Virus record (IMG/VR): IMGVR_UViG_3300025168_014165
Span: 1 to 33,504 of that record
DNA from: a virus
Reading direction: 5' to 3' (one strand)
Length of the DNA stretch: 33,504 nt
Part shown: in pieces, positions 3,713 through 30,659 of the stretch
Layout of the letters: each line of letters opens with the position of its first letter
How positions within the stretch are numbered: position 1 is the stretch's first letter
Translations under genes and position numbers: made by a program
Notes under the pieces: model-generated
Database searches by the model: none
Told to the model about the DNA's origin: nothing
The model's input: only the letters and a program-made list of their open reading frames with translations

Positions 3713-4945
3713 TTATAAATATAAATTACTCTTACAAACAATCAACTTATCTTCATATGTTTGTAAAGAATTTATATATAATTTAAAAATATCGAACTCC
3801 ATCTCACCGACTTCACCACTATCTTGTAGCATTTTAGCTAGATTTACTATTATCTGAAAGTTCTCGTTGTTTAGTTTCCCACAATCAAACTCAACTAAAA
3901 TGTCATGAGACTTAGTTACATCAGCATTACCATACATTTTTATTTTTTCATCTAAATTAAACTGAGTATTTGGTTGTTCTTCTCGTTGATATTCAGCTGA
4001 ATACTTTCCTACTGAACCATAATCCAAATATATTTTACTACACCAAGGTTCTAATTCATATAGAAGTTGTTTGTTACAATTAAGAGCTTTGAAAGCAATA
4101 TCATATTTAGGTGGAACTATCGGTTTAAGATAAGCATCATGTTGAACCATGTGTCCCCACTTACGAATAAAGTTTCTTGTACTCTTTAGATTCTGAGCTA
4201 ACCACTCTGATGATTCTCTCCCATTCATAAAGACTTGACCTGCTGGATTCCTCATAGCCCCATCCTTAAATCTACTACCTCTACAAGTCATATGATATAC
4301 GAAACCTTGAAATGTTTGTATGGTTCTGTAACCAGCCAACTGAAATCTGTTGAATATATCAGAGTCTTCTTTAGATTGTGGAGCATACAACGGGTCGTGC
4401 CCACCAATCTTTTGAAAATCTTTCTTATGTATAGCCCACGGAGCAAAGATACCTCGTGTATACTTTTCTGTTCTTTCTTCACTCAACCAACTCAGTAATC
4501 CTTGTTCGTCAAACTCTTCTGGTTCTATACCAAAGTCTAACAATACCTTTTCAGGACCATCGGGATGTAGTGGTGGTTCTATTCTTGTAGCAGATACAAC
4601 ACTACCTTCGGTTAACCTACCTAATACAGCTTCGTCCATACCAGGACACGCATACATATCAGCATGATATATCATCACGATATCACTTGTAGCATATTCA
4701 TTTACTAATGTATCGTAAAGTATAGTATGACCTAAACGAGTTGGTCCTTCGTTACGATGTATCTTTACATTCGGGTCTTTTTTAGCAATTTCTTGCATCC
4801 ATTCCCAAGTTCCATCGTCTGAGAAATCATCAGCCCAACATATCTCATGCCTGTATCCTAAGTTTTTTCTGATACTATTGTAAGACCATTTAAGATACTT
4901 TAGGTTGTTTCTACTTGGTTGTATAAAACTTATTATTTTATTCAT
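3713..4945 (-). CDS. GT2-like glycosyltransferase with extra C-terminal domain
   Basis: 410 residues. The first about 270 form a GT-A glycosyltransferase: a start of the MNKIISFIQPSRN type, ADDFSDDGTWEW (38-49) for nucleotide binding, IYHADMY (92-98) with the DxD-like HAD at 94-96 for the metal-bound sugar nucleotide, then a region with Trp and Asp-rich WAIHKKDFQKIGGHDPLY resembling the acceptor side of family 2. The remaining about 130 residues have no recognised motif. Activated-sugar transfer to an unknown acceptor is inferred. It is the last gene of the sugar block and overlaps the preceding gene by 8 nt. Confidence 0.85.
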   Translation of the reverse strand: MNKIISFIQPSRNNLKYLKWSYNSIRKNLGYRHEICWADDFSDDGTWEWMQEIAKKDPNVKIHRNEGPTRLGHTILYDTLVNEYATSDIVMIYHADMYACPGMDEAVLGRLTEGSVVSATRIEPPLHPDGPEKVLLDFGIEPEEFDEQGLLSWLSEERTEKYTRGIFAPWAIHKKDFQKIGGHDPLYAPQSKEDSDIFNRFQLAGYRTIQTFQGFVYHMTCRGSRFKDGAMRNPAGQVFMNGRESSEWLAQNLKSTRNFIRKWGHMVQHDAYLKPIVPPKYDIAFKALNCNKQLLYELEPWCSKIYLDYGSVGKYSAEYQREEQPNTQFNLDEKIKMYGNADVTKSHDILVEFDCGKLNNENFQIIVNLAKMLQDSGEVGEMEFDIFKLYINSLQTYEDKLIVCKSNLYL

Positions 4946-5915
4946 TAAATACCTCTTTTATTTTTTTTGTAAGTTCCGTATAATCCCTATAACCTCTTTC
5001 CTCTATGTCGCTGACTGGATCTAATATTGGATAAAAGTCGTGATTTGACATTTTCGTGTAATAGTTATCTTCTCCAAAATAATCATCTCTTTTACACTCG
5101 GTGCCAGTATTAAAATATGATATGTTTGGGACACCAAACATACTACACAATAAACCTCCACCACCACCCATAGATATAAATCCATCAACGGATGATAATA
5201 TTTGCAACTGAATTTTATTGTAATTATTAGTATCAGTAGGTAACTTATAACCAGATGAAATTATCAAATCATCCATTAAAGTTACATTATCATAATATTC
5301 TGTTAACTGATAATCTGTCATACGACCAATACCATCTACATCAGAGACTATGTCGGTGTAACCATTAATTAAAGCAGATGTTTCATTTTGGTCTAAAGCA
5401 AATTCATTATTTTTTGGTCTTTTGTATATAATATTGTATCCATTTTCAGTTAAATAATTAAATGTCTCATTTAAAAATGGGATATCAAAATATCCCAAAG
5501 GTCTTTTTCCATGTTCAAAATTATACCTATTAGACATAAAAATAGTAGGCTTATCGGTTTTAAACTTGTCTGTTAGATAAGTTTTTTTGTATGGTGGTAC
5601 AGACCACTTGCTGTAGTCCAATCTACCATTACAACTATTTTGCTCTTCAACTGTTAATTCACCATAGTCTTTACCAAATAAAGATAAAGCGTTGTGATGT
5701 ATCCAATTATTAGGTAAATTATCAAGACCAGCAGCTTTATTATCAATAGTTCTATAATCATATACTTCTTCAACATTATCACAAAAATAGTAAAATGGTT
5801 TCATACCCTTTACGGTTCTCACCCCCTCTAATTCACCCCTTTCATGTAACCAATAAGCATATGTTATGCCAAGTGTTAGTTCCAATCCAAATTCTGGATG
5901 CAAGTCAATTACCAT
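4938..5915 (-). CDS. Putative GT-B-type glycosyltransferase, paralogue of 24066-25052
   Basis: 325 residues. No named family is certain. Two blocks match the protein at 24066-25052: PEFGLEL near the N-terminus (7-13; GEFSYEL in the paralogue) and PTIFMSNR...HGKR (123-138; PTIFIMAR...HGKR). The C-terminal half has a Gly-rich loop SMGGGGGLLCSMFGVP (248-263), as expected for the sugar-nucleotide side of a GT-B fold, followed by a pattern like that in heptosyl- and fucosyltransferase-type enzymes. Soluble, no signal peptide. Function as a transferase is inferred from fold-like features and context. Confidence 0.6.
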   Translation of the reverse strand: MVIDLHPEFGLELTLGITYAYWLHERGELEGVRTVKGMKPFYYFCDNVEEVYDYRTIDNKAAGLDNLPNNWIHHNALSLFGKDYGELTVEEQNSCNGRLDYSKWSVPPYKKTYLTDKFKTDKPTIFMSNRYNFEHGKRPLGYFDIPFLNETFNYLTENGYNIIYKRPKNNEFALDQNETSALINGYTDIVSDVDGIGRMTDYQLTEYYDNVTLMDDLIISSGYKLPTDTNNYNKIQLQILSSVDGFISMGGGGGLLCSMFGVPNISYFNTGTECKRDDYFGEDNYYTKMSNHDFYPILDPVSDIEERGYRDYTELTKKIKEVFNE

Positions 5916-6630
5916 AATAAAATTCCTTTAATTCTATAATTTGATTTCTGATATCTTTAACTTTTATTGTGCCCTCAAGACACCTATTAGCAACGGCATC
6001 ATCATTTTTATGTATTTTTATTTTTTTATCAAAAACATCCTTTATTAGATTTAACAAGTCATATTTTGAAATGCATCTTGTGGATGGAATGTTAGTTAAA
6101 GAATACTCACCCCAACTTAAAATTATCTCGTGACATATCATAGACCATTGTAGAGTAGTTATGCCATTCCAATAATTTTCAGACCAACCATATACCTCGT
6201 TCTCACTATTCATAAACCACTCAAAAAGACTACTCTTTCCATTTAATTCAGGACCGAATATAGATGTTTTTATAATTTTAGTTGACTTACCAAAGGTTGT
6301 TATATAATTAGAAGCATTTTTTTTGGATACACCATACTCACTATTATCCATTTCAAAATCTGTACCTGAATGTATTATACGACATTTATTACAATTATTA
6401 TCTAACCATATTGGTAAATCCACATTAACTTCAAAGTTGTTTGTTTTTTGATGTATTGCACCAATACAATTAATTATGTAGTCACCATTGAAACTTAAAA
6501 TATTTCTAACAAAATCTTCATCAGACCATCTCGAATCACTGGTTAAAATTTCATAGTTAGTCTTTTCATTAAAGTATTTATAAACCATATGACCTAGCAT
6601 ACCTTTATGACCTAATATTAATATTTTCAT
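5905..6630 (-). CDS. RmlD-like SDR, NDP-4-keto-sugar reductase
   Basis: 241 residues, short for the RmlD family (about 290). The N-terminal Rossmann motif is GHKGMLG (7-13), a hallmark of dTDP-4-dehydrorhamnose reductase relatives, and YGVSK (99-103) gives the catalytic Tyr and Lys. Expected reaction: NADPH-dependent reduction of a 4-keto-6-deoxy sugar nucleotide. No rmlA, rmlB or rmlC is visible in the window, so the substrate is unknown; the 4,6-dehydratase-like SDRs nearby are candidate suppliers. It overlaps both neighbours (ATGA with the C-methyltransferase). Confidence 0.8.
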   Translation of the reverse strand: MKILILGHKGMLGHMVYKYFNEKTNYEILTSDSRWSDEDFVRNILSFNGDYIINCIGAIHQKTNNFEVNVDLPIWLDNNCNKCRIIHSGTDFEMDNSEYGVSKKNASNYITTFGKSTKIIKTSIFGPELNGKSSLFEWFMNSENEVYGWSENYWNGITTLQWSMICHEIILSWGEYSLTNIPSTRCISKYDLLNLIKDVFDKKIKIHKNDDAVANRCLEGTIKVKDIRNQIIELKEFYYGN

Positions 6631-7868
6631 ATAGAATCAAATCCTTCTAACTCATCATAAGACTGCACTAATTGAATATTAGGAAATGCTACTAAATAAG
6701 AATAACTCTTAAATTGTGTTTTATCTATTATCATTTTTGAATAATTCCAAGCAAATATAATTATTAAATCTACGTCATTATTTTTCAATGTCTCTACATC
6801 AACGATTGGTATTTCAGTATTTGCTATGTAACGACCACATCTTTCAGGCGACTCGTCCACTATAAACTTAACAACATCTTTATTTATACCTGTCAAATTA
6901 CAAAACATATTTGCTCTACCAGAAGCTCCATAACCTGCAATTTTATAATCTTTACTTAGTTTTACAATTTCTTTTTTAAAGTTTAGGATATGTTGTTTTA
7001 CATCTTGACCATAACTCATCAAATAATTAAGATTGGCAATACTATGGGATTCTAACTCTACTTTTTTGGATATTTTATCAGGTACATTTATTTTTTTATT
7101 TACAACTGTAACTCTAATAGATCCCGAGTGTATTGGTATTTCTTCAAAATCAATTAAAGTCATATTATATCTTTCAAACATGTTTTTTAGTGAGGTTATT
7201 GAATAGTAAAAAATGTGCTCATGGTATACATTATCCCATTGTTTACCTTTAATTAATTTATCTAAATAGTGAACCTCAAGGATAAAATTACCATTTGGCT
7301 TTAAAACATAATGTATACCTCTAATAACACTTTGTATATCTATAATATGAGCAAAAGCATTGTTTGATACAACTAAATCATACTTACTTTTAAATTTTTC
7401 ATCACCAAATGTTTCATCATTAAAATAATCATTGTATACTTTTAATCCCCTATCGGTAGCTATTTTAACAACATTAACTGCTGGATCGACACCTTCTACT
7501 TTAGCTCCAAGTTTTGACAAAGGTTCTAACAAAACCCCATCATTACACCCTATCTCTAATATATGTTTACCTTTCACATTATATTTTTTATCTAAATTAT
7601 TAGCAACTTCACCAAAGTGATTAGATAATCCAACAGATGATAAATATCTGTAATCTTCAAATAATATTTTAGGGTTTATTACTGAATCCGTTTGAGCTAA
7701 CTTACAATCATTACAAACTAGCAAACTTAACGGATACTTACTTTCAATACCAACTTCATCTTTATTAGGAAAATATCCAGCAAGAGGTACTATTCCCAAA
7801 TTTAATATCACACTAAAATCACTACTATTACAAGAAGAACAATTTTTTCTCTTCTGATAACCTTTCAT
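6627..7868 (-). CDS. NDP-sugar C-methyltransferase
   Basis: 413 residues with the three-part layout of sugar C-methyltransferases of the TylCIII type: an N-terminal zinc module with CSSC (10-13) and CNDC (52-55), a SAM-binding Rossmann domain with LEIGCNDG (104-111), and a C-terminal domain containing IAGYGASGRAN and VDESPERCGRY. A YHEH motif in the middle (about 215-218) matches the family's catalytic His/Glu region. It would add a branching methyl to a keto-sugar nucleotide, using a 4-keto intermediate from the SDR dehydratases. It is coupled by ATGA to both flanking SDR genes, supporting one pathway. Confidence 0.9.
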   Translation of the reverse strand: MKGYQKRKNCSSCNSSDFSVILNLGIVPLAGYFPNKDEVGIESKYPLSLLVCNDCKLAQTDSVINPKILFEDYRYLSSVGLSNHFGEVANNLDKKYNVKGKHILEIGCNDGVLLEPLSKLGAKVEGVDPAVNVVKIATDRGLKVYNDYFNDETFGDEKFKSKYDLVVSNNAFAHIIDIQSVIRGIHYVLKPNGNFILEVHYLDKLIKGKQWDNVYHEHIFYYSITSLKNMFERYNMTLIDFEEIPIHSGSIRVTVVNKKINVPDKISKKVELESHSIANLNYLMSYGQDVKQHILNFKKEIVKLSKDYKIAGYGASGRANMFCNLTGINKDVVKFIVDESPERCGRYIANTEIPIVDVETLKNNDVDLIIIFAWNYSKMIIDKTQFKSYSYLVAFPNIQLVQSYDELEGFDSI

Positions 7869-8812
7869 TTTATCACTCCACTTTCTTTTAAGAATTTATA
7901 TGCATCAAAATCATTCATCAAATAATCTAAAGAATTATATGAATGATGTTCATCATTTATACTTTCATCACCTATCAAAAAAAAGTTTTCTAACTCCTCT
8001 GTCTTTAGCCATTCCTCAGCTGAAACCATCTCTTCATGTAACTTTTCACCAGATCTAATTCCTATTTCTTTTAAATTAACCTTTGCTTCATAACTTTTTA
8101 TTAGTACACTAGCAATATCAGTAACTTTTAGTGATTTAACTTTTGGTACTGCTATTTTACCATGTGAATTAGGATATTCATAAGCCCAATGAATTAAATC
8201 AGTTGCCTGTTCCAATGTCAATAAAAATCTAGTCATATCATAATCTGTTATTGGTAAAGATTTTGTATTGGAATCTTCTAATAAACCTTTAAAATATGGG
8301 ATAACCGAACCGGTTGATTCTAATACATTTCCATATCTAACAGTAACTACTTTTACTTTATTCTGTTGTTTAGCAAAACTGATATATAATTGTTCACTTA
8401 TAGCTTTACACATACCATAAATGTTTATAGGTTTACAAGCCTTATCAGTTGATACAAATATTAAAGTTTCCAATTTACCATATAGGTTTATAGATTCTAT
8501 TACATTTTGATGACCAATTATATTTGTCTTTACACTTTCATATGGATTATCTTCACATACAGGTACATGTTTTTGTGCAGCTGCATTAATTACTACATTA
8601 GGATTAAACCTTAATAAAGCATTCATTACCGAATCTTTATCTCTTATGTCACCAACTATAGATTTTATTTTTGGATATTCTTTTAACAAATGATAATGTT
8701 TGTGTTCATCTCGTGAATAAACAATTATTTCGTTGTCACGATGATACCTCTCAATTAAATGTCTACCTAACGCACCAGTTCCACCTGGTATTAATATTGT
8801 CTTATTTTTCAT
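7865..8812 (-). CDS. PseB/CapD-like NDP-sugar 4,6-dehydratase
   Basis: 315 residues. Extended SDR with GGTGALG (10-16), INAAAQKHVPVCEDNP (75-90) and FVSTDKACKPINIYGMCK (119-136): the STDKA block plus Tyr132 and Lys136 are typical of UDP-GlcNAc 4,6-dehydratases of the PseB/CapD type. The C-terminal part keeps IRSGEKLHEEM, another family mark. The product would be a UDP-4-keto-6-deoxy-HexNAc. The usual Ser/Thr before the catalytic Lys is Cys135, a minor oddity. A paralogue lies at 9725-10630. Exact sugar and stereochemistry cannot be read from sequence. Confidence 0.88.
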   Translation of the reverse strand: MKNKTILIPGGTGALGRHLIERYHRDNEIIVYSRDEHKHYHLLKEYPKIKSIVGDIRDKDSVMNALLRFNPNVVINAAAQKHVPVCEDNPYESVKTNIIGHQNVIESINLYGKLETLIFVSTDKACKPINIYGMCKAISEQLYISFAKQQNKVKVVTVRYGNVLESTGSVIPYFKGLLEDSNTKSLPITDYDMTRFLLTLEQATDLIHWAYEYPNSHGKIAVPKVKSLKVTDIASVLIKSYEAKVNLKEIGIRSGEKLHEEMVSAEEWLKTEELENFFLIGDESINDEHHSYNSLDYLMNDFDAYKFLKESGVIK

Positions 8813-9734
8813 TCCAAATCCCTTTCCAATTATCTACAAAAACTTTCTCTGAATAATACATTTCAAATCTTTTTTGAGTTGTCTCTACACACAGATTATA
8901 AAACTTATCTGTTTTCAATTGTTTAGCTATATCTTTAGCTTTATCTATGTCTCCAAGTTCTACTGTGGTCAATGGATGTAATATTCTCTGAGTATTTAAA
9001 TTAGAATATCCAATACAAGGTATACCATGAAAACTACAATTTAGTTGAAACTGACCAGCAGCTGCCGTTCCTAATTGTATACCTATCCTAAAGTTTGATA
9101 GTAAATCAATCCACTCTCTCCACATAACCCAAGGTATGTGTTTTAATATTTGATTTTCTTCTTGTTTCATTCTACCAGTAGTTATAGCAGTTATATCATC
9201 TGTTATTTCTGATGCAACTTGGTAAGAATCAAACCCACCATAATCCTTTACCCAATTACCACCAATGATGACACCATCACCTCTTTTATTTTTTCTATTA
9301 ATACCATCTGTAATCATGACGGTGGGAAGTAGTTCAGTTCTAACTTTAGTTAATCCTGTATAATAGTCTAAATCTATATCGTTGTGGCAGAATATCATAT
9401 CCATCTCTGTAATAAAGTTAAAATACCAAATCTGCTCTTCAATGGGACTATCTTGCCAATAGTTGTAGTAACTTTCTTGCATAACTGTAACTTTTTTACA
9501 TACTCTACGATATTGCTCTAATAGTGGATAGTTTAATAACATCTTTCTATTCTTTGGTAATATCATCACACCAATGTCATATGATTTATCGGGTAGATTT
9601 TGTAGTCTTGGAAATGGATGATGTGTTGCATCTGTCAAATACATCCAAGCAGCATCAGTTCTGATGTTTACATTATCTAATGTAATCTTACCTTCAAATC
9701 CACCTTCTGTAAAGAACCCTACTTTTAACCCCAT
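8802..9734 (-). CDS. Putative glycosyltransferase (GT-B-like)
   Basis: 310 residues, no signal peptide. The family is not certain. The C-terminal half has VIIGGNWVKDYGG (155-167) and IQLGTAAAGQFQLNCSFHGIPCIGY (219-243), the sort of loop and strand pattern that binds the nucleotide in GT4/GT9-like proteins, followed by residues suited to a terminal helix. It lies between two paralogous 4,6-dehydratase genes and overlaps both by 10-11 nt. Called a transferase from this C-terminal pattern and from context. Confidence 0.55.
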   Translation of the reverse strand: MGLKVGFFTEGGFEGKITLDNVNIRTDAAWMYLTDATHHPFPRLQNLPDKSYDIGVMILPKNRKMLLNYPLLEQYRRVCKKVTVMQESYYNYWQDSPIEEQIWYFNFITEMDMIFCHNDIDLDYYTGLTKVRTELLPTVMITDGINRKNKRGDGVIIGGNWVKDYGGFDSYQVASEITDDITAITTGRMKQEENQILKHIPWVMWREWIDLLSNFRIGIQLGTAAAGQFQLNCSFHGIPCIGYSNLNTQRILHPLTTVELGDIDKAKDIAKQLKTDKFYNLCVETTQKRFEMYYSEKVFVDNWKGIWNEK

Positions 9735-10630
9735 ATTAAATCCCTCATTTCTAATGTGGTCATCTTCTCAGCACTAGCAGAGTTATAAGGTTTTGATAAC
9801 TTATTAAACTCGGTATTTTTTTGAGCTTTTATATGTATATCGTCATCATAGATAAAGGTACGAGATATTTCTCTTTCGGATATTAAATCCTCATCAGTTT
9901 TCTCACCAGCTCTTTTACCAACTATCTCTATATCATCAGATATTACTTTTGCTAAATCTAACATATTCACACATTTCATCTTATATGACTTTACAAACCC
10001 ACCACCATATTTTTGGGTAAAGTCAATGGTTCTATTGATTAAATTAGCCGCATCTTCTTTTGTAAATATTAATCTATTCATATCTGGATCTGTAAGTTTT
10101 AATGGTTTACCTTCTGATTTTAACTTTAACCAAAATGGTAATACTGAACCAGCACTATGAGCTACATTAGCAAACCTAGTTAGTGCAAATCTAGTAGCAT
10201 CATCATTGTTTACATTCATAAAAACCCTTTCCATTAAATACTTTGAAGCACCATATACACTTTCCGATAAACAAGCTTTGTCCGTACTGACTCCAATAGT
10301 TATTGGAACATCATTTATTATACTAGCCTCAACTACATTCAAACTACCCATAACATTTACATTACAACCGGCAATAGGGTTTTGCTCCATCAAATCAATG
10401 TGTTTCATAGCAGCTGAATGAACTACCACATCTGGCTTTACTTCCTTAAATACCCTAAGTAGTAAAGATTTATCCTCTATGTTACCTACATAACATTTAA
10501 CATTTGGATATTCTCTTTTTAAATTAGTTATGTTTTCTTCATTTCTACTTATGCTAATATACTCATTATTATTCTGTTTTACAAGCGATTTTCCAACTGT
10601 TCCTGTTCCACCTGTTATTAATACTTTCAC
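9725..10630 (-). CDS. PseB/CapD-like SDR, second copy
   Basis: 301 residues, GTG start at 10630 with GGAG 5 nt upstream, directly after the preceding TAA. Features: GGTGTVG (7-13), HSAAMKHIDLMEQNP (71-85), VSTDKAC (114-120), and Tyr126 and Lys130 in YGASK. It keeps the RAGEKTDEDLIS block seen in 4,6-dehydratase/epimerase relatives. It is clearly homologous to 7865-8812 but divergent, so it may act on another sugar or epimerise C5. It follows the LmbE-like deacetylase in transcription order. Confidence 0.85.
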   Translation of the reverse strand: MKVLITGGTGTVGKSLVKQNNNEYISISRNEENITNLKREYPNVKCYVGNIEDKSLLLRVFKEVKPDVVVHSAAMKHIDLMEQNPIAGCNVNVMGSLNVVEASIINDVPITIGVSTDKACLSESVYGASKYLMERVFMNVNNDDATRFALTRFANVAHSAGSVLPFWLKLKSEGKPLKLTDPDMNRLIFTKEDAANLINRTIDFTQKYGGGFVKSYKMKCVNMLDLAKVISDDIEIVGKRAGEKTDEDLISEREISRTFIYDDDIHIKAQKNTEFNKLSKPYNSASAEKMTTLEMRDLIWG

Positions 10631-11281
10631 TTAGACTCCAAATAATTCTATTACTTTAAATTGTTCTACCACATCTCTACCTTTTTTATTACATTGAAAA
10701 TTATTATGAAAAGCGTCCAATGACTTCTTCTTAAAATAAGACTTATGACTTTGGGACTTAAACTCTTCCAATGACTTTAACTTATTATCATAGACAGATT
10801 TTATATCTATAAACAAGTTTGGTTGCCAACTATTAAGTGAACTGAATGTATGATATTCAATTAAACTTATGGGTGAGAACCTACATAAAGCTGAACCGAA
10901 CTTATTTACAAACCTATGTTCAAACATCGAGTCATCGCCAGTTGGAATAAATATTCCATCATAATTATTCTCCGTTACAAACTCATTCTCGATATAGTTA
11001 ATCCAACCAGGCTCGGTACAATCTTCAAAGTAATCATACTTAGAATGGTGTACTTGAACATGGTCTGTTACACCAGGTTTCCAAAAATTCCAAACATTGT
11101 CCACTTCTTTTCTTCTGTCTAATTTATTAGTTTCATCATAACCTTTTGCACCACCTTTTGTTAAACATAAGACATCAAACATTGTTTCATCATATTTAAA
11201 TATAGTGCCCATCATTCCTATCTCCACATCATCAGGATGTGGCGATAAACATAAAACTTTATTTAAATTTAAAAATTTCAT
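10631..11281 (-). CDS. PIG-L/LmbE-like N-deacetylase
   Basis: 216 residues. SPHPDDVE at 13-20 carries the zinc ligands (His15, Asp18) and catalytic Asp17 of the family, and DDSMFEHRFV (116-125) supplies the third ligand His122. Members remove N-acetyl groups from GlcNAc-containing substrates. Here it would act on a sugar nucleotide, lipid-linked sugar or finished glycan; which is unknown. It starts at ATG 11281, overlapping the acyltransferase stop by 4 nt, so acetylation and deacetylation functions are coupled. Confidence 0.85.
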   Translation of the reverse strand: MKFLNLNKVLCLSPHPDDVEIGMMGTIFKYDETMFDVLCLTKGGAKGYDETNKLDRRKEVDNVWNFWKPGVTDHVQVHHSKYDYFEDCTEPGWINYIENEFVTENNYDGIFIPTGDDSMFEHRFVNKFGSALCRFSPISLIEYHTFSSLNSWQPNLFIDIKSVYDNKLKSLEEFKSQSHKSYFKKKSLDAFHNNFQCNKKGRDVVEQFKVIELFGV

Positions 11282-15974: not shown

Positions 15975-16044
15975 TATATAACCATTTTTTTTACTTATTA
16001 ACCTTTGTATATATAAATATATATTTTTTTATAAAACAATGAAT
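15975..16044. promoter_or_regulatory. Intergenic gap with AT element shared with 30615-30659
   Basis: A gap between genes, the largest in the window. It holds GTATATATAAATATATA at 16007-16023, which also occurs exactly at 30641-30657 in another gap. On the minus strand it lies about 33 nt ahead of the next start (27 nt at the other site). It could be a promoter or a weak AT-only hairpin; no terminator stem with a GC-rich arm is seen. Confidence 0.35.
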
Positions 16045-20110: not shown

Positions 20111-20115
20111 TTTAT

Positions 20116-21989: not shown

Positions 21990-22963
21990 TCACTTTCATA
22001 TTTTTGCATACTTCTCAGTTTGACTTTACCCTCATTTGGAACAGCCACTCCATCATCACACCTATTGCATATATCAGTTTTACCCGTCATTATTCTAGTC
22101 TTAAAGTTTTTAGTTTCAAATATATCTGGATAATCCATTTGTAACAAATTCCCAAGTGGTTCTTCTAATCCATAATCTTGACAACATAATTGTAAAGTGC
22201 CATCTGGTAATAAAACATTATGTATTATTCTATGACACCAATTGTTTTCCCACAACTTTTTACCAGTCAACTTGCCTAAGTTTCCAGCTCGTGAATTTAA
22301 TCCTCTATTTTTATAACCTATAGCTCTTATCCTATCACCAGCGTGTTTCTCTATTTCTGGATGTAATTTATAACCTTCTGCACTATGAGTATGGAATACT
22401 TTACGAAAATCGGCATCAATTATATAATCTATCATCTCTAAATAATCATCTGATATTTCTCTTCCAGTTTTTGATTTAACACTTGGTGAATTTTTTCCTA
22501 TGTTTTCAAAGTATGTTGCGGATGTTAAGTGTACATTAAACTCTTTAAAAGATGGTATTTTTTCTAATCTGTCTATATCGTTCTTTTTCATCCCAACCAA
22601 TGTCGTGTTGATTAAAACTTTATGTCCTTTTTTGTGAGCGTGTTCTATCATATCAGTACAATTTGGATTTTCAAAAGCTTCTGTGTAGCCTGTAAAATGT
22701 ATATCTACTTCTTTTGATACAGTAGAAAGACATTTTTCAAAAGTTTTCATTGACATCATTGTTACTCTATTCTTATCATCCTTAACATACTCATTGGTCA
22801 ATAACTTATCTAAACTTTTAGTATCACCTGAACTTTCATAGTAATTTACTAATCTTTCATTATGAACATTACCTACAAAATTCTTAATTAGCTTAGTTTG
22901 TGGGCAATATTCACACATGTTGGAACAACCGATTTTTGTAGTAATTTCTAAAATGTACTGCAT
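21971..22963 (-). CDS. Radical SAM protein with SPASM-like C-terminus
   Basis: 330 residues from the ATG at 22963, chosen for AAGGGG 4-5 nt upstream; the frame opens 9 codons earlier. CSNMCEYC at 13-20 is the CxxxCxxC [4Fe-4S] motif. A radical SAM barrel follows (HFTGYTEAFENP, INTTLVG, NVHLTSA). Near the C-terminus come LQLCCQDYG and TDICNRC, cysteines that may bind a second cluster in a SPASM/twitch region. It may perform a hard C-H or C-C reaction on a sugar or peptide. Neighbours are a DegT aminotransferase and a GT-D-like enzyme. Substrate unknown. Confidence 0.85.
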   Translation of the reverse strand: MQYILEITTKIGCSNMCEYCPQTKLIKNFVGNVHNERLVNYYESSGDTKSLDKLLTNEYVKDDKNRVTMMSMKTFEKCLSTVSKEVDIHFTGYTEAFENPNCTDMIEHAHKKGHKVLINTTLVGMKKNDIDRLEKIPSFKEFNVHLTSATYFENIGKNSPSVKSKTGREISDDYLEMIDYIIDADFRKVFHTHSAEGYKLHPEIEKHAGDRIRAIGYKNRGLNSRAGNLGKLTGKKLWENNWCHRIIHNVLLPDGTLQLCCQDYGLEEPLGNLLQMDYPDIFETKNFKTRIMTGKTDICNRCDDGVAVPNEGKVKLRSMQKYESEWRIKS

Positions 22964-22964
22964 A

Positions 22965-24065
22965 TTACCCCTTACTGTTAAAATATTCATGAACCCAATA
23001 AATTACATAATCAATATCTTCCTCTGTCATTCTATTATGACAAGGTAATGTAATAAATCTACCCCATTCACTATCAGCTACTGGATAATCTCTATTTTGT
23101 ATTAATGGAGCGTATTTATGAAGAGGTTTAAAATGAACTGAAGTGTGAATGTTTTTGGTTGCTAAATAATCAATTAACTTATCTCTGTCATCGTGTAAAA
23201 CTCTTGAGCAATAATATTGTACAGTTTCTGAGTGTGGTGGTCTTTCCATAATATCAGGCAACTCTTTATTATATCTCTTTTGAACATGTCTACGAAACTT
23301 TAAGTTTTCAGGCAACTTCTTCATCTGTTCTAAAGCAATAGCAGCTATTATATCAATCATATAGTATTTATAACCAATCAAGTCAACTTGGTAATCCCAA
23401 GCATATCCTGGAGTAGCACCACTAGCTCTACTCCAAGTAGAAGATACACCAAACCAAGTCATTTCCCTACACTTATCAGCTAATTGTTTATCATTGGTTG
23501 TTATCATCCCACCATCACCAGTAGGCATTGTTTTTACTGCTTGAAAAGACCATACAGCAGCATCGCCACCTTGTCCAGCGCCTGGTGTATAACAACTATG
23601 AGCAGTATCTTCAAGTATGAACCCACCAAATACTTTTCTTAAAGCATTATAATCACAAGGTACACCAGCTTGATTTACGGCTATCATGACTTCACTATTC
23701 GGTTTCTTATACTTCTCTACATCTTTTGGATCTATACATAATGTATCTCTCTTTACGTCAACTATGTTAGTGGTGAATCCATTCCATAAAGGAATCATCG
23801 CTGTGGCTATAAAAGATATAGTTGGATTAATAACATCAATACCTTTAAATCCCATAGCTTTCATGATCAAATCTTGACCGTGAGACGCACTTGTGACAGC
23901 CACAGCATATTTGTGACCAACCATTTTAGCGAACTTCTCTTCAAACTCTGCTACTTTAGGACCTTTACCCCACCACCCACTCTCTATGACTTCTTGAAGG
24001 GCTTCTATCTCTTCTTTTCCACCTTTAGGACCTAAAACTGGTAACATATTTTCTCTAATATCCAT
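22965..24065 (-). CDS. DegT/DnrJ/EryC1/StrS aminotransferase, second copy
   Basis: 366 residues. GWWGKGPKVAEFEEKFA (30-46), TSASHGQDL (58-66), ILEDTAHSCYTPGAG (150-164, Asp153) and VWSFQAVKTMPTGDGG (171-186, PLP Lys178) are the family blocks. The divergence from the enzyme at 18932-20110 suggests a different keto sugar substrate. The gene starts directly after the upstream stop and is followed by the radical SAM gene. Confidence 0.93.
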   Translation of the reverse strand: MDIRENMLPVLGPKGGKEEIEALQEVIESGWWGKGPKVAEFEEKFAKMVGHKYAVAVTSASHGQDLIMKAMGFKGIDVINPTISFIATAMIPLWNGFTTNIVDVKRDTLCIDPKDVEKYKKPNSEVMIAVNQAGVPCDYNALRKVFGGFILEDTAHSCYTPGAGQGGDAAVWSFQAVKTMPTGDGGMITTNDKQLADKCREMTWFGVSSTWSRASGATPGYAWDYQVDLIGYKYYMIDIIAAIALEQMKKLPENLKFRRHVQKRYNKELPDIMERPPHSETVQYYCSRVLHDDRDKLIDYLATKNIHTSVHFKPLHKYAPLIQNRDYPVADSEWGRFITLPCHNRMTEEDIDYVIYWVHEYFNSKG

Positions 24066-25052
24066 TTATAACTCCTTATAAAAACTTACAAATTCATTAA
24101 ATAATTCTTCTATTGGTGACTCGTAGATTTCACCATCGTGATATTTATCAAAATTCTTAAAATGTTTAAAATCTAATAATTTCTTTTCCCATCCAAGTTC
24201 AAGCCTAAAACCCTCTTCTTTTGTCTGCTGAGTAAATGTTGGTGTGTTTACAAAGAAAGGAACTACAGCAGCACCACTAGCACCATAAATACTACATTTA
24301 GTATTTTTTAGTATTGCTAGTTGTTTTTCAAATGAATCTGAATCATTCTTTTCCAATTCAAAATTCATTATCTTATCTCTCACATCTTCAAATAATTCGT
24401 GTTCAGCTAAACCCTTTGAACCACCCCTACTTCCTTGAGTCTTAATAGACAATGAAATCACATTTACATTTAACTCATCAATTAATTTTCTAGTAAAAAT
24501 AGGCCAGTTATCAGGATTCCAATCTAAATAGCATCTTTTACCATGTCTTGTTCTAGTTCTCGCCATAATAAATATAGTAGGACTATTATTATCAAAGTAG
24601 TTATTTATATTAGAAATTACTTCTTTTTCAATTTTTGTATCAACATCATAATGTACATATTCACCATATGGAAAATCTTGTAAACACCTTTCTCTTGTTA
24701 TAGGAAAATCACCTGGTTTGTGAACGGCTATTTCAGTAAAACCTCTGTTCTTTAAATCTTCAATTACATCATTCAAATGATTTATAAAAACCGATGGAAT
24801 TATATCTCTACCATCAACATGCTCACCATATGTAGCAGGAAATTTTAAAGTTTCTTCTAATTCAATTGGATGAGGTATGTATTCGTCTATGAAATCTTTA
24901 TAAGCAACACCCCTACCATTAAAACCCAAATACACAGCATGACAATCACTAAAATTTTCATTTCTAATTTGTCTACATTCTGGATTCCACCAACTTAGCT
25001 CGTAACTAAATTCACCAACCCAAGGTCCAAATATTATAACTTTCTTACTCAT
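24066..25052 (-). CDS. Putative GT-B-type glycosyltransferase, paralogue of 4938-5915
   Basis: 328 residues. Blocks shared with 4938-5915: GEFSYELSWW (13-22) near the N-terminus, PTIFIMAR...RHGKR (158-173), and a C-terminal ILKNTKCSIYGASGAAVVPFFVNTPT (247-272) that occupies the place of the Gly-rich loop. Outside these blocks the two proteins diverge. The N-terminal EFxxEL and the mid-protein HGKR may define the family. Soluble; a sugar transferase role is inferred from fold pattern and neighbours. Confidence 0.6.
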   Translation of the reverse strand: MSKKVIIFGPWVGEFSYELSWWNPECRQIRNENFSDCHAVYLGFNGRGVAYKDFIDEYIPHPIELEETLKFPATYGEHVDGRDIIPSVFINHLNDVIEDLKNRGFTEIAVHKPGDFPITRERCLQDFPYGEYVHYDVDTKIEKEVISNINNYFDNNSPTIFIMARTRTRHGKRCYLDWNPDNWPIFTRKLIDELNVNVISLSIKTQGSRGGSKGLAEHELFEDVRDKIMNFELEKNDSDSFEKQLAILKNTKCSIYGASGAAVVPFFVNTPTFTQQTKEEGFRLELGWEKKLLDFKHFKNFDKYHDGEIYESPIEELFNEFVSFYKEL

Positions 25053-25959
25053 TTTTTAAACTATATTTTTTATTTATATATTTTATTATATCAATTTTAG
25101 CAGCCCATCCCAAAAATTTTTTAGCTTTATCATCTAAGTTTAATGTTTCTTTTTGTTCTGCTGGTCTTTTTGTGATATATTTTTTAGGATAATTTTTACC
25201 AAATGCATCTGCTATTTCATTTATGGAATAATTTTTACCTCTACCTAACTCATATGTTTTTCCACGAGTGTTATCGCCAAAACAAAGAAATATACCACAT
25301 CTGATTAACCCATCTACTATATCATCAATATGAGTGAAGTCTCGTCTTTGTTCACCATCACCTGTAATAGTTAATGGTTTGCCCTCACGATATTGTTTTT
25401 CAAAAATACCAACAACTGTAGAGTAATCACCTTCTTCTAATTGATGTTCCCCATATACATTATAAAATCTACATATCGCAGTTGGCAAATCATATACCTT
25501 ATCATATAACTTACATAATTGTTCACCAGAATGCTTTGACCAAGCGTATGGACTACTCCATAAACCCTTATGAAAGGTGCTTGATCCAGAGAATACTACT
25601 GGTGTATTATTTTTTCTAGCCCACTCCAATACATTAAGAGCACTATTAAAATTATTGCTTATTGCTTTGGTTGGATTTTTCAATGATGGTTGTATACGAG
25701 CTAAAGCAGCAATATTGAATATTAAATCAACAGGTTCTACTTGACAATCACATGAAACCTCACACTCACATATATCAGATAGATTCCACCATTTATCTTT
25801 TGATAAATCTCGGTCAATGTAAAGACACCCATTTTGTTCATTTTCTTTCTTACCGGTTGAATAATTGTCCACAGATATTACATCATGTTGTTCTTTCAAT
25901 AATCTTTTTATTAAGTTTGTGCCTACAAATCCAACACCACCAGCAACTAATATTTTCAT
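25045..25959 (-). CDS. NAD-dependent epimerase/dehydratase (GalE/WbpP-like SDR)
   Basis: 304 residues. GGVGFVG (7-13) binds NAD, IAALARIQPSLKNP (83-96), Ser124-Ser127 and YAWSK (Tyr138, Lys142) form the catalytic site, and FYNVYGEHQ and RRDFTHIDDIVDG are typical of UDP-hexose 4-epimerases and relatives. An insertion at about 62-73 carries four cysteines (ICECEVSCDC, C64, C66, C70, C72) absent from the family at large. A 4-epimerisation of a UDP-sugar is the simplest guess. It overlaps both neighbours. Confidence 0.85.
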   Translation of the reverse strand: MKILVAGGVGFVGTNLIKRLLKEQHDVISVDNYSTGKKENEQNGCLYIDRDLSKDKWWNLSDICECEVSCDCQVEPVDLIFNIAALARIQPSLKNPTKAISNNFNSALNVLEWARKNNTPVVFSGSSTFHKGLWSSPYAWSKHSGEQLCKLYDKVYDLPTAICRFYNVYGEHQLEEGDYSTVVGIFEKQYREGKPLTITGDGEQRRDFTHIDDIVDGLIRCGIFLCFGDNTRGKTYELGRGKNYSINEIADAFGKNYPKKYITKRPAEQKETLNLDDKAKKFLGWAAKIDIIKYINKKYSLKNE

Positions 25960-26591
25960 TTTTTTATCCCACTTATATCTTCATTATAAAATCTATTTTG
26001 CTCTACTTGTCTTTCTATTGTTTTAGGATGAGTAATAGAATACTTATGTCCTGTTGGTAGGTGAGCATAAGTTTGAAAACCGACTAATTGTTCATGAACT
26101 GGTTTTTCCCAACGAATGTTTGGTCGGTTACGAAAGATGCGACCTTGCCAATCAGGATAGTTTATCCAACCTCTTTCGTTTATTGTATACCCATACATTC
26201 TACAATGTTCTTCTGTTATTCCCTTTACGGTATTTACTCTTGGTAAGAAAATTAAGTCAACCGGATTACCTTCAAGTATCTCGTGGATGTCTGCCATAAA
26301 CCAAGATGAAATTATCTCATCAGCGTCCAAGTTAAAACTATAATCACCACTACACATTTTCTTTAGATAGTTTTTTTGTGAAGCAAAATCTTCCAACAGA
26401 TTTCTTTGCTCAAAGACTATGTTTTCAGTAGATACATAAAAATCTAAAATAGCTTTTGTTTTTTCATTGTCTGAATAATCATCAAGAATAACTATCTCAT
26501 CTTGTGGTTGTTTATACTTTATTAAAAACTTTAATAGCTTTTCAAGAGTAGTAGTTTCGTTGTGGGTTAATATAGAATAACTAATTTTCAT
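25956..26591 (-). CDS. GT2 glycosyltransferase (WaaE/KdtX-like)
   Basis: 211 residues, shorter than usual. SILTHNETTTLEKLLKF (6-22), IVILDDYSDN (33-42), FNLDADE (86-92) with DxD Asp89 and Asp91, and a C-terminal WQGRIFRN...VHEQLVG plus HPKTIERQVEQNRFYN match the WaaE-type core-glucosyltransferase layout. It is the first gene of the long sugar run, and its ATG at 26591 sits 6 nt from the -10 box of the promoter at 26598-26626. Confidence 0.88.
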   Translation of the reverse strand: MKISYSILTHNETTTLEKLLKFLIKYKQPQDEIVILDDYSDNEKTKAILDFYVSTENIVFEQRNLLEDFASQKNYLKKMCSGDYSFNLDADEIISSWFMADIHEILEGNPVDLIFLPRVNTVKGITEEHCRMYGYTINERGWINYPDWQGRIFRNRPNIRWEKPVHEQLVGFQTYAHLPTGHKYSITHPKTIERQVEQNRFYNEDISGIKK

Positions 26592-26626
26592 TGATATAAT
26601 TTACTATAAAATATTGATAAAGTCAA
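26592..26626 (-). promoter_or_regulatory. Sigma70-type promoter driving the sugar block
   Basis: TTGACT (26621-26626), 17 nt, then TAAATT (26598-26603), preceded by G, then ATATCA and the ATG. The sequence from the -10 to the ATG (15 nt) is identical to that at 1398-1412. The -35 overlaps the TGA of the upstream gene. Transcripts would be leaderless or nearly so. Confidence 0.75.
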
Positions 26627-27081
26627 GTGATAAATTGTGTATTTATCTGTGTAACTTTTAATGATGTTAACTTGGTAAGTTTGTATGACCTGTATGATCC
26701 TTTAAAATATTTATCAGCTGATATAATATCACTATAAAATCTTTTAGGTGTCATAGCACTTCTTTTCTTTGGATTAGCAATCTGCAATCTAAAGTATTCT
26801 TCTTTCAAACCGATTAAGTTTTCTACCTCATCTGTTTCTGTTTTTTTAAAGTCAGCAACAGTAAATAACTTTTTTAACTTAGTTGGATTAAGATAGTTTA
26901 TATTTAAACCCTCTAAATTTTTACTTTTCTTATTTGTATTTAGATAAAGTAGAATAGGTCTAGGATCCATAACACCTGGTTCTGAGTAATTAAATGTAAT
27001 TATCATACCAGGTAATAATCTACCTTGACCTATTGTTTGAACAGATTTAACTATTCGTTTGTTGTTGTATCTGCTCGCCAA
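26623..27081 (-). CDS. Conserved phage protein, function unknown
   Basis: 152 residues, TTG start at 27081 supported by GGAG 7 nt upstream; overlaps the previous gene by 35 nt. It begins MASRYNNK, has LLPGMIITFNYSEPGVMDPRPILLYLN (22-48) and GLNINYLNPTKLKKLF (58-73), then a basic C-terminal region (SYRSYKLTKLTSLKVTQIN). This reminds me of a T4-type phage protein family with GxxYxFxYxP...GLNLHYLP blocks, usually of unknown or structural role, but the recall is not firm. No enzyme motif. Confidence 0.6.
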   Translation of the reverse strand: MASRYNNKRIVKSVQTIGQGRLLPGMIITFNYSEPGVMDPRPILLYLNTNKKSKNLEGLNINYLNPTKLKKLFTVADFKKTETDEVENLIGLKEEYFRLQIANPKKRSAMTPKRFYSDIISADKYFKGSYRSYKLTKLTSLKVTQINTQFIT

Positions 27082-27463
27082 TGAGATTCTCCAATTTTTC
27101 TACCATTTTAAAAGCATCCGAAAATGTAGGCATTACTACTTCTGTAGCAGGATCTGCTTGAGCGTAAACTCTCCACTTTAACTCACCATCAACTACTGGA
27201 ACAACCATATAGTTTTCTGTTGTGAATACGGATGGCGCCCAATACCTACCCTTACTTGTCTCCACACATACTTCCTTAAAGTCATCAGGAAATGGTTTTA
27301 TGTGAGTTTTCATAGTTTTGTTAGAAGCGTAACCACAGGCTAAGCACTGCATATTCTGTTCTTCATCACCCAATAAAACCATTGACTCTAATATCTCACC
27401 ACCAACAACAGTACACTCTTTTGTGTTATTTGGACATTTGACTTTTAATATCATATCATCCAT
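27047..27463 (-). CDS. Zinc-ribbon-containing protein, unknown
   Basis: 138 residues. Two cysteine pairs, C10 and C17, and CLAC at 40-43, suggest a small zinc ribbon in the N-terminal 50 residues. The remainder has beta-rich FKEVCVETSKGRYWAPSVFTTENYMVVPVV and a helical, Gln-rich tail (LENLIGEQIQQQ). It starts directly at the stop of the GT4 gene (TAATG). Not recognised beyond this. Confidence 0.6.
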   Translation of the reverse strand: MDDMILKVKCPNNTKECTVVGGEILESMVLLGDEEQNMQCLACGYASNKTMKTHIKPFPDDFKEVCVETSKGRYWAPSVFTTENYMVVPVVDGELKWRVYAQADPATEVVMPTFSDAFKMVEKLENLIGEQIQQQTNS

Positions 27464-28818
27464 TATGTTACCTTTTTTAGTTTAGGTAGTTTTATTTTTG
27501 CTGGTTGTGGAGATTCACCACCGACTTTTTTAAGTTTAGGAAGTTTTAAACTGACAGGTTGTGGAATTGATTTTAATACATCATCTATAAGTTTATTAAA
27601 TTGTGTTGCCATAGCAGTTAATGAAAACTCTCTTCTGTTCTTCTTACCCAAACGAGTAGCTTTCTTTTGTATTAGTTTTCTTTTCTTGTGAAAAGTTCTA
27701 ATCTTTCTAACCACATCGGCTTCATTTACATCAAACCATTTAGATGGTTCTACAATAATAGGTTTCCATATAGCAGACTTAGGAACTGGTTTTAAAAAGC
27801 CATCAATTAACATAGATTCGGCATCTGTAAGAAAATCCATATGACCACTCCACTTTGGAGCAATTACAGGTAAGTCACAACAAGTAGCTTCTAACATTGG
27901 TCGTCCAAAACCCTCTCCGTGTGTACAAGTAATAAAAGCAGCAATCTTTGGGTGGTTGTAAAGAGTTGACATTTCTTCAATCGTTAAGTCACCGTGTATT
28001 AAATAAATATTTGGTAAATCAACACCCTCAAACATATCTTTAACTGATTGTATTCTTTTCTTTATGTCAGCTTTATCAAGAACACTAAAGTTAGCACCAT
28101 TAGTTTTAAGAACAAGTGCTGGTGGATTGGGTATATTAGAGAAAGCCTTTAAAAAAGATTTGATTAAAACACCAATGTTTTTTCTATCTTCTCCAAAACC
28201 TTGTTGTCCCCATTGTCCAACATGAAGATAAGCAAAGTCTTCTTTGATAAGTTTATCCAAGTCATTATATAAACCTCTCTCCAACTCATGTTTTTGTTTT
28301 GGGCAATATGCATCCGTATCTACACCCTCAAACAAAACTGAAATAGGTTTTTCATTTTTTATTTCACCCACTTTTTGTTTTTGTCCGTTAGGAGCATCTT
28401 GCATCTTATCAAATGTACATCTGTTAAATGTGTCTGCTGTAAACTTAGATGGAACTATATTAAGGTTCATCTTGTTCATACCATCTAAAAATTGAGGAGA
28501 TACAACATCAGTTTCTACACCAGCAGTTATACCGATATTAACTTTACCACCTTGAATAAACTCATTAGGTATTCTAATATCGATAACAACATCAGGTTGA
28601 CTTGTTATTTTATCTTGTGTTGTAAAACTACTTAACAACTTCTGATGTCTTTTGACTTCAGGTCGTAAGTGATTTCTAGGTGTTGAACCCCACTTAACAT
28701 CTAAACATTTAATGTCTAAATCTTCTCTATCCATAATAGAATAATAGATTGAACGAGCATGGTCACCATACCCACTACGGGTATTAAAAGGTGCAATCAT
28801 AACTACTGAACGTTTCAT
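27463..28818 (-). CDS. GT4 glycosyltransferase with repeated C-terminal tail
   Basis: 451 residues from the ATG at 28818 (ATGA overlap with the previous gene; the frame opens 12 codons earlier). A GT-B fold: MKRSVVMIAPFNTRSGYGDHARS for the N-terminal Rossmann half, LFEGVDTDAY at the domain hinge, and THGEGFGRPMLEA (299-311) with the E-x7-E signature (Glu302, Glu310) for sugar-nucleotide binding. Residues about 419-450 are two copies of a PQP-x4-LPKLKKV motif, Lys/Pro rich and probably disordered. Paired with another GT4 gene upstream. Confidence 0.88.
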   Translation of the reverse strand: MKRSVVMIAPFNTRSGYGDHARSIYYSIMDREDLDIKCLDVKWGSTPRNHLRPEVKRHQKLLSSFTTQDKITSQPDVVIDIRIPNEFIQGGKVNIGITAGVETDVVSPQFLDGMNKMNLNIVPSKFTADTFNRCTFDKMQDAPNGQKQKVGEIKNEKPISVLFEGVDTDAYCPKQKHELERGLYNDLDKLIKEDFAYLHVGQWGQQGFGEDRKNIGVLIKSFLKAFSNIPNPPALVLKTNGANFSVLDKADIKKRIQSVKDMFEGVDLPNIYLIHGDLTIEEMSTLYNHPKIAAFITCTHGEGFGRPMLEATCCDLPVIAPKWSGHMDFLTDAESMLIDGFLKPVPKSAIWKPIIVEPSKWFDVNEADVVRKIRTFHKKRKLIQKKATRLGKKNRREFSLTAMATQFNKLIDDVLKSIPQPVSLKLPKLKKVGGESPQPAKIKLPKLKKVT

Positions 28819-30176
28819 ACTGCCTCCATAGTGTATTTTTCTTTTGGTTTCCAATTATCAAATGCCCCATCCATAGAACTAATAAACTCTTGTCCCATAG
28901 CTTTTGATGTCATTAGATTTTCTTTACAAAACTTAGTTCCCAATGAACCAAGTCTTTTTCTTTCTTCCCTACCTAAGTCGTATAGTTTCTTTAACTGAAC
29001 AGCAGCATCTTCTGGCTGACATCTATCATCAAAAATATAAGGTGTCATAGGTGAACCTTGAAGTGAACGATTAGTTGGATAAACAGGAAATACCCACTCA
29101 CCATGTTCAGTATAAGTTCCTTTATGATTAGAACCTAACTCGACATAATCTTCAGGTGTTAAAAACTCACCATCTTTCCTAAAACCACATTGGTCTTGTA
29201 GACCACCAGTAACATTAACAATGATTGGTGTTCCAACGGTAAGAGCTTCAGCACTACCTAATCCAAATCCCTCGTTACTAGCCAAGTTAATATAAACATC
29301 AGCAGAGTTAAATAGTAGATTCATGTCATTATCATTAAATGGTCGTCTATCTGTTTCATATGTAAAACAAACATCATATTCAGGACATAAGTGTTTATGA
29401 ACTCTTGGTAAATCTGTTCCGTTATCATCAACTGGTGAACAATGAAATACCAACACACACTCTTCTCTTTGTTCAGGTGTTAAACCATCCATAAAGTATT
29501 TATATGCCAATAAAACATCACCAGGTTGTTTTCTTCTGATGTTTCTATTACTATAAAGTATCTTAAATTTCTTGTTAGCGATACCATGTTTAGAGTTAAA
29601 ATCAATTAAAGAAACATTATCATCTTCTATCTTATTAAATCTTCTTTCTGATATACCATGAGGCACATAAGTTATTTGCCAATCTTCATAATCAGGTAAT
29701 AATCTTTTATTGATTCCATACGTTTGTTTTGATATACCCATCAACAAATCAGAACTCTTGTAGTAGTTTGTATTGTATTGTGGATCTGGTAAGTCATCCC
29801 ATATATTATAATAAAAGATAGGAATATCTCTACGGATTTCTGCTTCCATGTTATAAAACCAAATCCAAAATCTAGGATCAGTATAATGAAGTATAGCATC
29901 TGGTTTTTCTATAGCAATAACATCTCTTAATAAATCTTCATTACCATAACCATCAACTGGATATATTCTCAAGTAGCCATCTTTTATACCAAAATCTTTT
30001 TGGAGATGTTCTGACATGTCAATAACTTTTCCAGCTTCAGGATGTTTGATAGCTCCACCCATCTGAACCCAATCATATTCATTTAATGTCTCAAATACAA
30101 TATCTTTAGATACCGTAGCTACGCCACTATGCATTCTCAAGTCATCAGACATTAGTAATATTTTCTTCTTAGCCAT
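28815..30176 (-). CDS. GT4-like glycosyltransferase
   Basis: 453 residues. MAKKKILLMSDDLRMHSGVATVSKDI (1-26) is a GT-B N-terminal Rossmann start; ITYVPHGISERRF (168-180) precedes the C-terminal domain; ASNEGFGLGSAEALTVGTPIIV (299-320) carries Glu302 and Glu310 of the E-x7-E signature. Several insertions (QDQCGFRKDGEF and the NRSLQGSP segment) distinguish it. Soluble; it could modify phage or host structures. It overlaps the following GT4 by 4 nt and the preceding helical protein by 8 nt. Confidence 0.88.
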   Translation of the reverse strand: MAKKKILLMSDDLRMHSGVATVSKDIVFETLNEYDWVQMGGAIKHPEAGKVIDMSEHLQKDFGIKDGYLRIYPVDGYGNEDLLRDVIAIEKPDAILHYTDPRFWIWFYNMEAEIRRDIPIFYYNIWDDLPDPQYNTNYYKSSDLLMGISKQTYGINKRLLPDYEDWQITYVPHGISERRFNKIEDDNVSLIDFNSKHGIANKKFKILYSNRNIRRKQPGDVLLAYKYFMDGLTPEQREECVLVFHCSPVDDNGTDLPRVHKHLCPEYDVCFTYETDRRPFNDNDMNLLFNSADVYINLASNEGFGLGSAEALTVGTPIIVNVTGGLQDQCGFRKDGEFLTPEDYVELGSNHKGTYTEHGEWVFPVYPTNRSLQGSPMTPYIFDDRCQPEDAAVQLKKLYDLGREERKRLGSLGTKFCKENLMTSKAMGQEFISSMDGAFDNWKPKEKYTMEAV

Positions 30177-30614: not shown

Positions 30615-30659
30615 AACCTATTCCTCGTTGTCTATAACTAGTATATATAAATATATAGT
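30615..30659. promoter_or_regulatory. Intergenic gap with AT element shared with 15975-16044
   Basis: 45 nt between the SLOG stop and the RHH-like start. The 17-mer at 30641-30657 is identical to one at 16007-16023. On the minus strand it reads as a near-palindrome (7 nt arms around TT) and is followed by ACGAGG before the ATG, the Shine-Dalgarno site. It may be a promoter or an operator for the RHH protein. Confidence 0.35.

Follow-up and report, generated by a model that had tools for sequence, protein, structure and literature searches.

To what is a glycan attached when the phage that encodes its synthesis carries no visible genes for its export? This question is raised by a long cluster of sugar genes at positions 3713 to 30176 of the IMG/VR record IMGVR_UViG_3300025168_014165, which comes from a T4-like phage, is itself a fragment and was analysed over its full 33,504 bases (here called the window). 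The extent and gene order given for the cluster in an earlier note on this DNA are correct: its open reading frames (ORFs) are contiguous and all lie on the minus strand. The same note left three targets open, namely host carriers, virion proteins and DNA; the evidence favours the virion, disfavours DNA and leaves host carriers as a serious rival. The locus consists of a fixed frame, formed by the glycosyltransferases GT4a and GT4b, two small proteins and the glycosyltransferase GT2a on one side and by the glycosyltransferase GT2b at the opposite end, and of an exchangeable cassette between them, and near-identical phages have exchanged whole cassettes, with GT2a and GT2b as the borders. We consider it probable that cytosolic enzymes, expressed late, glycosylate a virion protein and that the phages change this glycan by cassette exchange.

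The T4-like phages that carry the locus form a large and mostly environmental family, with at least 98 relatives of GT4a and at least 262 relatives of GT2b in IMG/VR. In the examined records that include both ends of the locus and in two cultured phages the genes follow one order: nuclease (and DprA-like) genes, a small ORF, GT4a, GT4b, in most cases one or two further small ORFs, GT2a, the cassette, GT2b and the HNH side. In the window, the operon begins with an ORF of 67 amino acids (30411..30614), homologues of which occur in 51 of the 59 records compared, and an ORF of 80 amino acids (30169..30411; phrog_1811) found in some of the relatives. GT4a (28815..30176; E 1e-9) and GT4b (27463..28854; E 3e-7; phrog_2170, E 6e-19) both match Pfam Glycos_transf_1, which confirms the GT4 pair that the earlier note placed at 27463-30176. 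They are followed by two conserved frame ORFs recognized by synteny in relatives, one of 138 amino acids (27047..27463) for which a Pfam search gave no match, and one of 152 amino acids (26623..27081) weakly similar to the DNA end protector phrog_429 (E 0.0017). GT2a (25956..26591) and GT2b (3713..4945), both assigned to Pfam GT2, enclose the cassette, the stop codon of GT2a being its left edge and the start codon of GT2b its right edge.

Frame proteins are mostly 60-96% identical between relatives, and the majority of the window's cassette genes are missing in most relatives. The cassettes are 1.9 to 26 kb long, hold 3 to 31 genes, practically all on the same strand, and are dominated by short-chain dehydrogenase (SDR), DegT, methyltransferase, radical-SAM, PIG-L and glycosyltransferase families; the nonulosonic-acid synthase NeuB is present in 6 of 22 records, among them the sister record of the window, and is lacking in the window itself. 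The locus is neighboured by nuclease, DprA-like, HNH and peptide deformylase genes and is not embedded in a tail-fibre or host-recognition region. A Polysacc_synt_2 dehydratase of the SDR family (9725..10630) has copies 87-88% identical in the cassettes of the relatives G007 and G018, although GT4a of G018 is 52% identical, and GT2b is 71-79% identical in relatives in which GT4a is only 52-55% identical. That both are closer than GT4a indicates that parts of the cassette and GT2b move between lineages.

The cassette of the window (4946..25955; 21.0 kb, 23 genes) is replaced by 22.8 kb in the sister record IMGVR_UViG_3300020165_002465 (G014), whose DNA is 91-93% identical to the window on both sides of the cassette. 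Homology between the two stops at position 25955, one base past the stop codon of GT2a, and restarts at 4947, two bases before the start of GT2b; between these borders they are mostly non-homologous, with only short patches of 71-81% similarity. Two further relatives (L036 and L038) share a stretch of 6,717 bases at 99.5% identity, which ends 10 bases beyond the GT2a stop, and are unrelated thereafter, and the same break pattern, at 97.5% identity, separates L035 from L037 and L038. Chimeric assembly as the source of these breakpoints was rejected, because independent records, several in number, share the same borders, and more than one sample yielded each of several alternative cassettes. The frame itself is not exempt from exchange: L008 and L078 have 100% identical cassettes and are only 84-93% identical in the GT4a-GT4b region. 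This divergent stretch lies about 1.5-5.5 kb before the GT2a stop in flanks that are otherwise 99-100% identical, which indicates that the GT4 pair has itself recombined.

A block that is large, variable and located outside the T4 core could be filler that serves headful packaging, or an island that hitch-hikes neutrally, as was floated for the large lipopolysaccharide clusters of cyanophages (PMC3037559). However, the ratio of non-synonymous to synonymous substitution rates (dN/dS) is 0.04-0.10 for cassette genes shared by relatives (six pairs), and such strong purifying selection indicates that these genes are functional and already contradicts the filler explanation. The cassette ORFs of the window are moreover intact and overlapping, the borders are fixed and the promoter-like motif of the operon is conserved, all of which makes filler a most improbable explanation.

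The lack of export genes claimed in the earlier note holds in the window and, as far as profile searches and hydropathy could be applied, in its relatives. Initiating phosphoglycosyl transferases (PF02397 or PF00953) and the flippase family PF01943 had no match in any of 15 records, which include the complete genomes of immuto (160 kb) and Mel-JY01 (190 kb); the controls matched. The note had also proposed to look for export and polymerase genes in the rest of the genome; in about 20 related records, the two complete cultured genomes among them, no flippase, polymerase or initiating transferase turned up. A simple hydropathy scan, which covered Mel-JY01 over 37 kb only, detected no proteins with five or more hydrophobic spans in the window, the scanned relatives or complete immuto, save the tape-measure protein of immuto and an EamA transporter of the relative G016. 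The 283 cassette proteins contain one hydrophobic segment each at most, and Gtr-type multi-spanning membrane proteins (GtrA flippase, membrane-bound GtrB/Gtr) are found neither among them nor in the window. The products of the cluster indeed look cytosolic, its sole hydrophobic segment lying at the N terminus of a hexapeptide acyltransferase-like protein (11278..12153), ahead of an internal ATG; the annotated start of this gene is probably too early. The EamA transporter of G016 (L243:11318-12226) and a DUF6580 membrane protein (L245:4817-5302) are encoded near the glycan locus of that phage.

Missing export genes are also compatible with the use of host machinery. The enzymes might extend or remodel a host surface glycan (a lipopolysaccharide or capsule precursor) in the cytosol, to be exported by the flippase and polymerase of the host, with the purpose of excluding rival phages or of avoiding that progeny stick to debris. 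Cassette enzymes are typical O-antigen enzymes, and this is the published reading of the islands of pelagimyophages (PMC7029224). On the other hand, Gtr-type membrane proteins are absent, the frame is conserved across phages whose hosts' lipid-linked acceptors would differ, and the motif at the head of the operon is of the virion type and not of the early type. Modification of the host surface is the main rival explanation, which we regard as rather unlikely.

This motif emerged when intergenic regions upstream of genes were searched de novo; the search returned an early-type element (TTGAC-N-TAnnTT), a late-type element ([AT]ATATTTAT) and a Shine-Dalgarno signal. In those operons to which the annotated proteins of immuto allowed a structural or replication class to be assigned, the late-type motif is distributed between the two classes at 25:5 and the early-type motif at 1:11 (Fisher p 1e-5, an optimistic value because the records are related). 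Of 43 distinct upstream sequences of the glycan operon, 33 contain the late-type motif ahead of the first ORF, compared with 3.6% of other genes, and when the search was re-anchored on GT4a it was found at 41 of 55 distinct loci versus 30 of 261 control windows; none of 61 loci shows the early-type motif at the operon head. In the window, ATATTTATATAT has two matches where 0.16 are expected by chance, both on the coding strand and intergenic: one at the operon head (30643..30654), about 30-40 bases upstream of the first ORF, and one (16009..16020) in the only sizeable intergenic gap of the cassette. In immuto, the late-type motif precedes the glycan operon as well as terL-gp20, tail-fibre/structural and hub/tape-measure genes. 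Judged by its motif, the glycan operon thus appears to be expressed late, together with the virion genes. The T4 late promoter TATAAATA was rejected as a timing marker; it does not occur above chance and is not found upstream of gp23 in this lineage.

A virion protein fits best as the acceptor: virion proteins are synthesized in the cytosol, at the time suggested by the motif, and are carried along by the phage. The frame is retained from immuto, which infects Flavobacterium, to the Microcystis phage Mel-JY01, as it should be if the phage brings its own acceptor, and we infer that this acceptor is probably a virion protein. The best solved match of GT2a is GmaR by sequence (full length, E 7e-12) and SunS and ThuS by fold (confident model, predicted local distance difference test (pLDDT) 91.5); GmaR glycosylates flagellin and SunS a peptide. 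This likeness is only suggestive, and homology does not settle the acceptor, since TarP and TarS follow closely. Several points weigh against a virion target. TarP and TarS act on wall teichoic acid, WaaE/LgtF-like families are not among the PDB matches of GT2a, and a structure search with GT2b gave generic GT-A matches only and was uninformative. Soluble glycosyltransferases can also act on lipid-linked precursors of the host, which the host exports. PhoH, ssb and a few replication operons likewise bear the late-type motif, and the label "late" itself derives from the association of the motif. Finally, the genome of the window is incomplete, and the hydropathy evidence comes from the simple scan with its partial coverage of Mel-JY01. 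The family PF01973 (MptE-like), tried as a marker of flagellin-type transferases, was discarded as uninformative, its control having matched in archaea only.

The glycan could also be attached to bases of the phage DNA, as in T4. All members of the lineage have the GT4 pair, and immuto has a 7-deazaguanine DNA pathway. GT4a also exceeds the Pfam cut-off of the GT4-conflict family PF20706, named from conflict systems (27.4 bits versus 26). However, the thymidylate-synthase family (PF00303) is absent from 14 of 15 records, including complete Mel-JY01 and the 100-130 kb fragments G001-G003, and the one match is ThyA of immuto. A DNA target is thus very unlikely, since the known hydroxymethyl-base route is missing where testable; for base-oxidation enzymes of the Tet/JBP type a search gave no match, but neither did its controls. 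A DpdA-type DNA guanine transglycosylase is encoded by immuto (34045-34839) and has otherwise only a weak match in G009 (49217-49843), which indicates that 7-deazaguanine modification of DNA is not common to the lineage. In addition, a variable cassette of 20 genes with a late-type motif is not needed for DNA protection. We give equally little credence to a target elsewhere, that is, to a small glycoside, a secreted molecule or a host cytosolic protein. Several ORFs without a family match would be compatible with such products, but at least seven supported transferases and the enzymes of the fixed frame argue for a single defined oligosaccharide on an acceptor that stays constant, and we know of no precedent for targets of this kind.

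If a virion protein is the acceptor, the cytosolic enzymes would build the oligosaccharide directly onto it in the host cytosol; the frame enzymes would start or finish the chain on this phage-encoded acceptor, and the cassette would determine which sugars are used. Homologous recombination in the frame during co-infection would then swap the cassette and provide the phage with a new coat, similar to capsule switching in bacteria, and the likely benefit would lie in a change of adsorption, in a shield against grazers or against host factors that bind phages, or in a masked virion. The more specific proposal, that a widespread lytic T4-like lineage coats its virions with complex oligosaccharides (of the nonulosonic-acid type in some phages) by means of a late operon and switches them in one step through a cassette of 10-26 kb between fixed border genes, has in our estimate about even chances. 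With a virion target, lytic phages would have serotypes of their own, with consequences for adsorption, for recognition by immune systems or grazers and for competition between phages; the cultured relative immuto makes the question testable.

Both glycosyltransferase islands of T4-like phages and phage virions that carry glycans are already known. Bacterial capsule and O-antigen loci have fixed end genes and exchangeable sugar genes and switch by recombination in their flanks. The phage locus resembles these (Wzx/Wzy or ABC) loci in its sugar-nucleotide enzymes and glycosyltransferases, its fixed flanks and its variable centre, but lacks a flippase, a polymerase, an initiating transferase and export genes. 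Chloroviruses likewise encode cytosolic glycosyltransferases, and their self-encoded glycosylation targets the capsid; the nearest solved relative of GT4a is the chlorovirus protein B736L (3oy2, E 8e-15), although chloroviruses infect eukaryotic algae and the likeness is limited to this one match at the domain level. Phage immuto (vB_FspM_immuto, Immutovirus) has the same arrangement in immuto35A_88-101 (PD-(D/E)XK nuclease, small ORF, GT4, GT4, ORF, GT2, sugar genes, GT2b-type glycosyltransferase, HNH), headed by the late-type motif, but its cassette is only 5.7 kb long and contains other sugar genes, and its frame proteins are 39-46% identical.

Pelagimyophages are T4-like marine phages that also carry a large and variable island with many genes for glycosyltransferases and sugar enzymes; this hypervariable host-recognition island is surrounded by tail-fibre genes, between VrlC and gp14, and was read as modifying the O-chain of the host (PMC7029224). 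In the lineage of the window, by contrast, the operon stands apart, its end genes are fixed and the cassette is exchanged in a single step. Long clusters of sugar genes are known for years from T4-like phages, such as the lipopolysaccharide clusters near hli03/phoH in the cyanophages P-SSM2 and S-SSM7, for which the available text of the source leaves open whether they are functional or stuffer DNA and reports no exchange within a fixed frame (PMC3037559). The selection data address this question for the present lineage, in which selection acts on such genes, whole units of them are exchanged at fixed borders and a shared motif links them to virion genes. Mycobacteriophages such as Che8 decorate virion proteins with phage-encoded glycosyltransferases (Freeman 2023, cited in PMC11256854 and PMC12619734); those of the present lineage are likewise phage-encoded and look soluble. 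According to the accessible parts of these sources, the Che8 relative Maravista has few glycosyltransferases, and an exchangeable cassette of 20 genes is not mentioned. The combination of fixed border transferases, one-step cassette exchange between near-identical phages, purifying selection and a shared virion-type motif was not found in the literature searched, which covered few subscription journals.

No near match to the DNA of the window was found among 50,697 phage records. Its flanks are phage-like, with genes for a UVDE-type endonuclease, a MazG-like protein, peptide deformylase and HNH on one side and for a DprA-like protein, a PD-(D/E)XK exonuclease and a ClpP-like protease on the other. 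The T4-like myovirus backbone is found in relatives, its genes being located outside the window fragment: longer relatives encode tail sheath, baseplate wedge, DnaB and family-B polymerase, all T4-like genes, and the Gp23 major capsid protein of relatives is about 51% identical to that of immuto. The host of the window phage is likely a member of the Bacteroidota, as suggested by the early-type element, which resembles Bacteroidota promoters, by immuto, the closest well-annotated isolate, which infects Flavobacterium and has Flavobacterium sp. LMO8 as its laboratory host, and by several matches in metagenome-assembled genomes (4 of 13 in Flavobacteriales-type bins, namely L140, L144, L145 and L147; these are phage contigs within mixed bins and not decisive for the host). 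The intergenic regions of relatives contain a strong Shine-Dalgarno signal (TAGGAGAA) alongside the Bacteroidota-like early promoter elements, which calls for caution regarding a Bacteroidota host.

The number of 13 glycosyltransferases proposed in the earlier note is an upper figure, because only seven have family support. Four of these exceed Pfam cut-offs (the two GT2 and two GT4 enzymes of the frame, starting at 3713, 25956, 27463 and 28815), and three rest on weaker matches or paralogy: a GT8-like enzyme (13092..13874; marginal, E 6e-4, under the Pfam cut-off), its paralogue in a GT8-like domain fused to a methyltransferase-like domain (13867..15228; 32% identity, E 6e-32) and a probable glycosyltransferase (20116..21132) with a weak Glyco_trans_1_2 match (E 0.018), whose family is common to the cassettes of many relatives. 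The other six candidates (4938..5915, 8802..9734, 12092..13102, 16045..16860, 21129..21989 and 24066..25052) have no family match, and PDB searches with the family profiles of 8802 and 12092 gave nothing. The candidate at 16045 belongs to phrog_32718, and that at 8802 often occupies the last cassette position, adjoining GT2b.

The five SDR genes and the two aminotransferases of the note were confirmed. Besides the dehydratase at 9725, the former comprise an NAD-dependent epimerase/dehydratase (25045..25959; Pfam Epimerase, E 7e-40), a short-chain dehydrogenase (16857..17510), a UDP-GlcNAc 4,6-dehydratase-like, PseB-like enzyme (7865..8812; Pfam E 3e-77), an assignment also based on solved relatives, and an SDR/epimerase-like protein (5905..6630) just under the Pfam cut-off. 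Both aminotransferases are of the DegT type, one PseC/ArnB-like (22965..24065) and one (18932..20110; Pfam E 2e-69) with 4zwv, 4xau and CalS13 as its nearest solved relatives. The exact sugar cannot be named, because 7865 and 22965 resemble PseB and PseC but fall below the model cut-offs (262 bits versus 408 for PseB). Family matches also bear out the tailoring enzymes: a PIG-L de-N-acetylase-like protein (10631..11281), a second hexapeptide acyltransferase-like protein (18372..18938) in addition to that at 11278, a sugar C-methyltransferase (6627..7868; Methyltransf_13/14), a PhyH-type dioxygenase (17500..18384) and a SPASM radical-SAM-like protein (21971..22990). An ORF at 15225..15974 without a family match is, by eye, possibly polysaccharide deacetylase-like. 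Outside the window, one protein of relative G001 (L084:728-1372) combines a POPDC (Popeye) membrane domain with a domain that binds cyclic nucleotides, which is unusual for a phage, and a protein of G003 (L101:17782-18435) has a similar N terminus.

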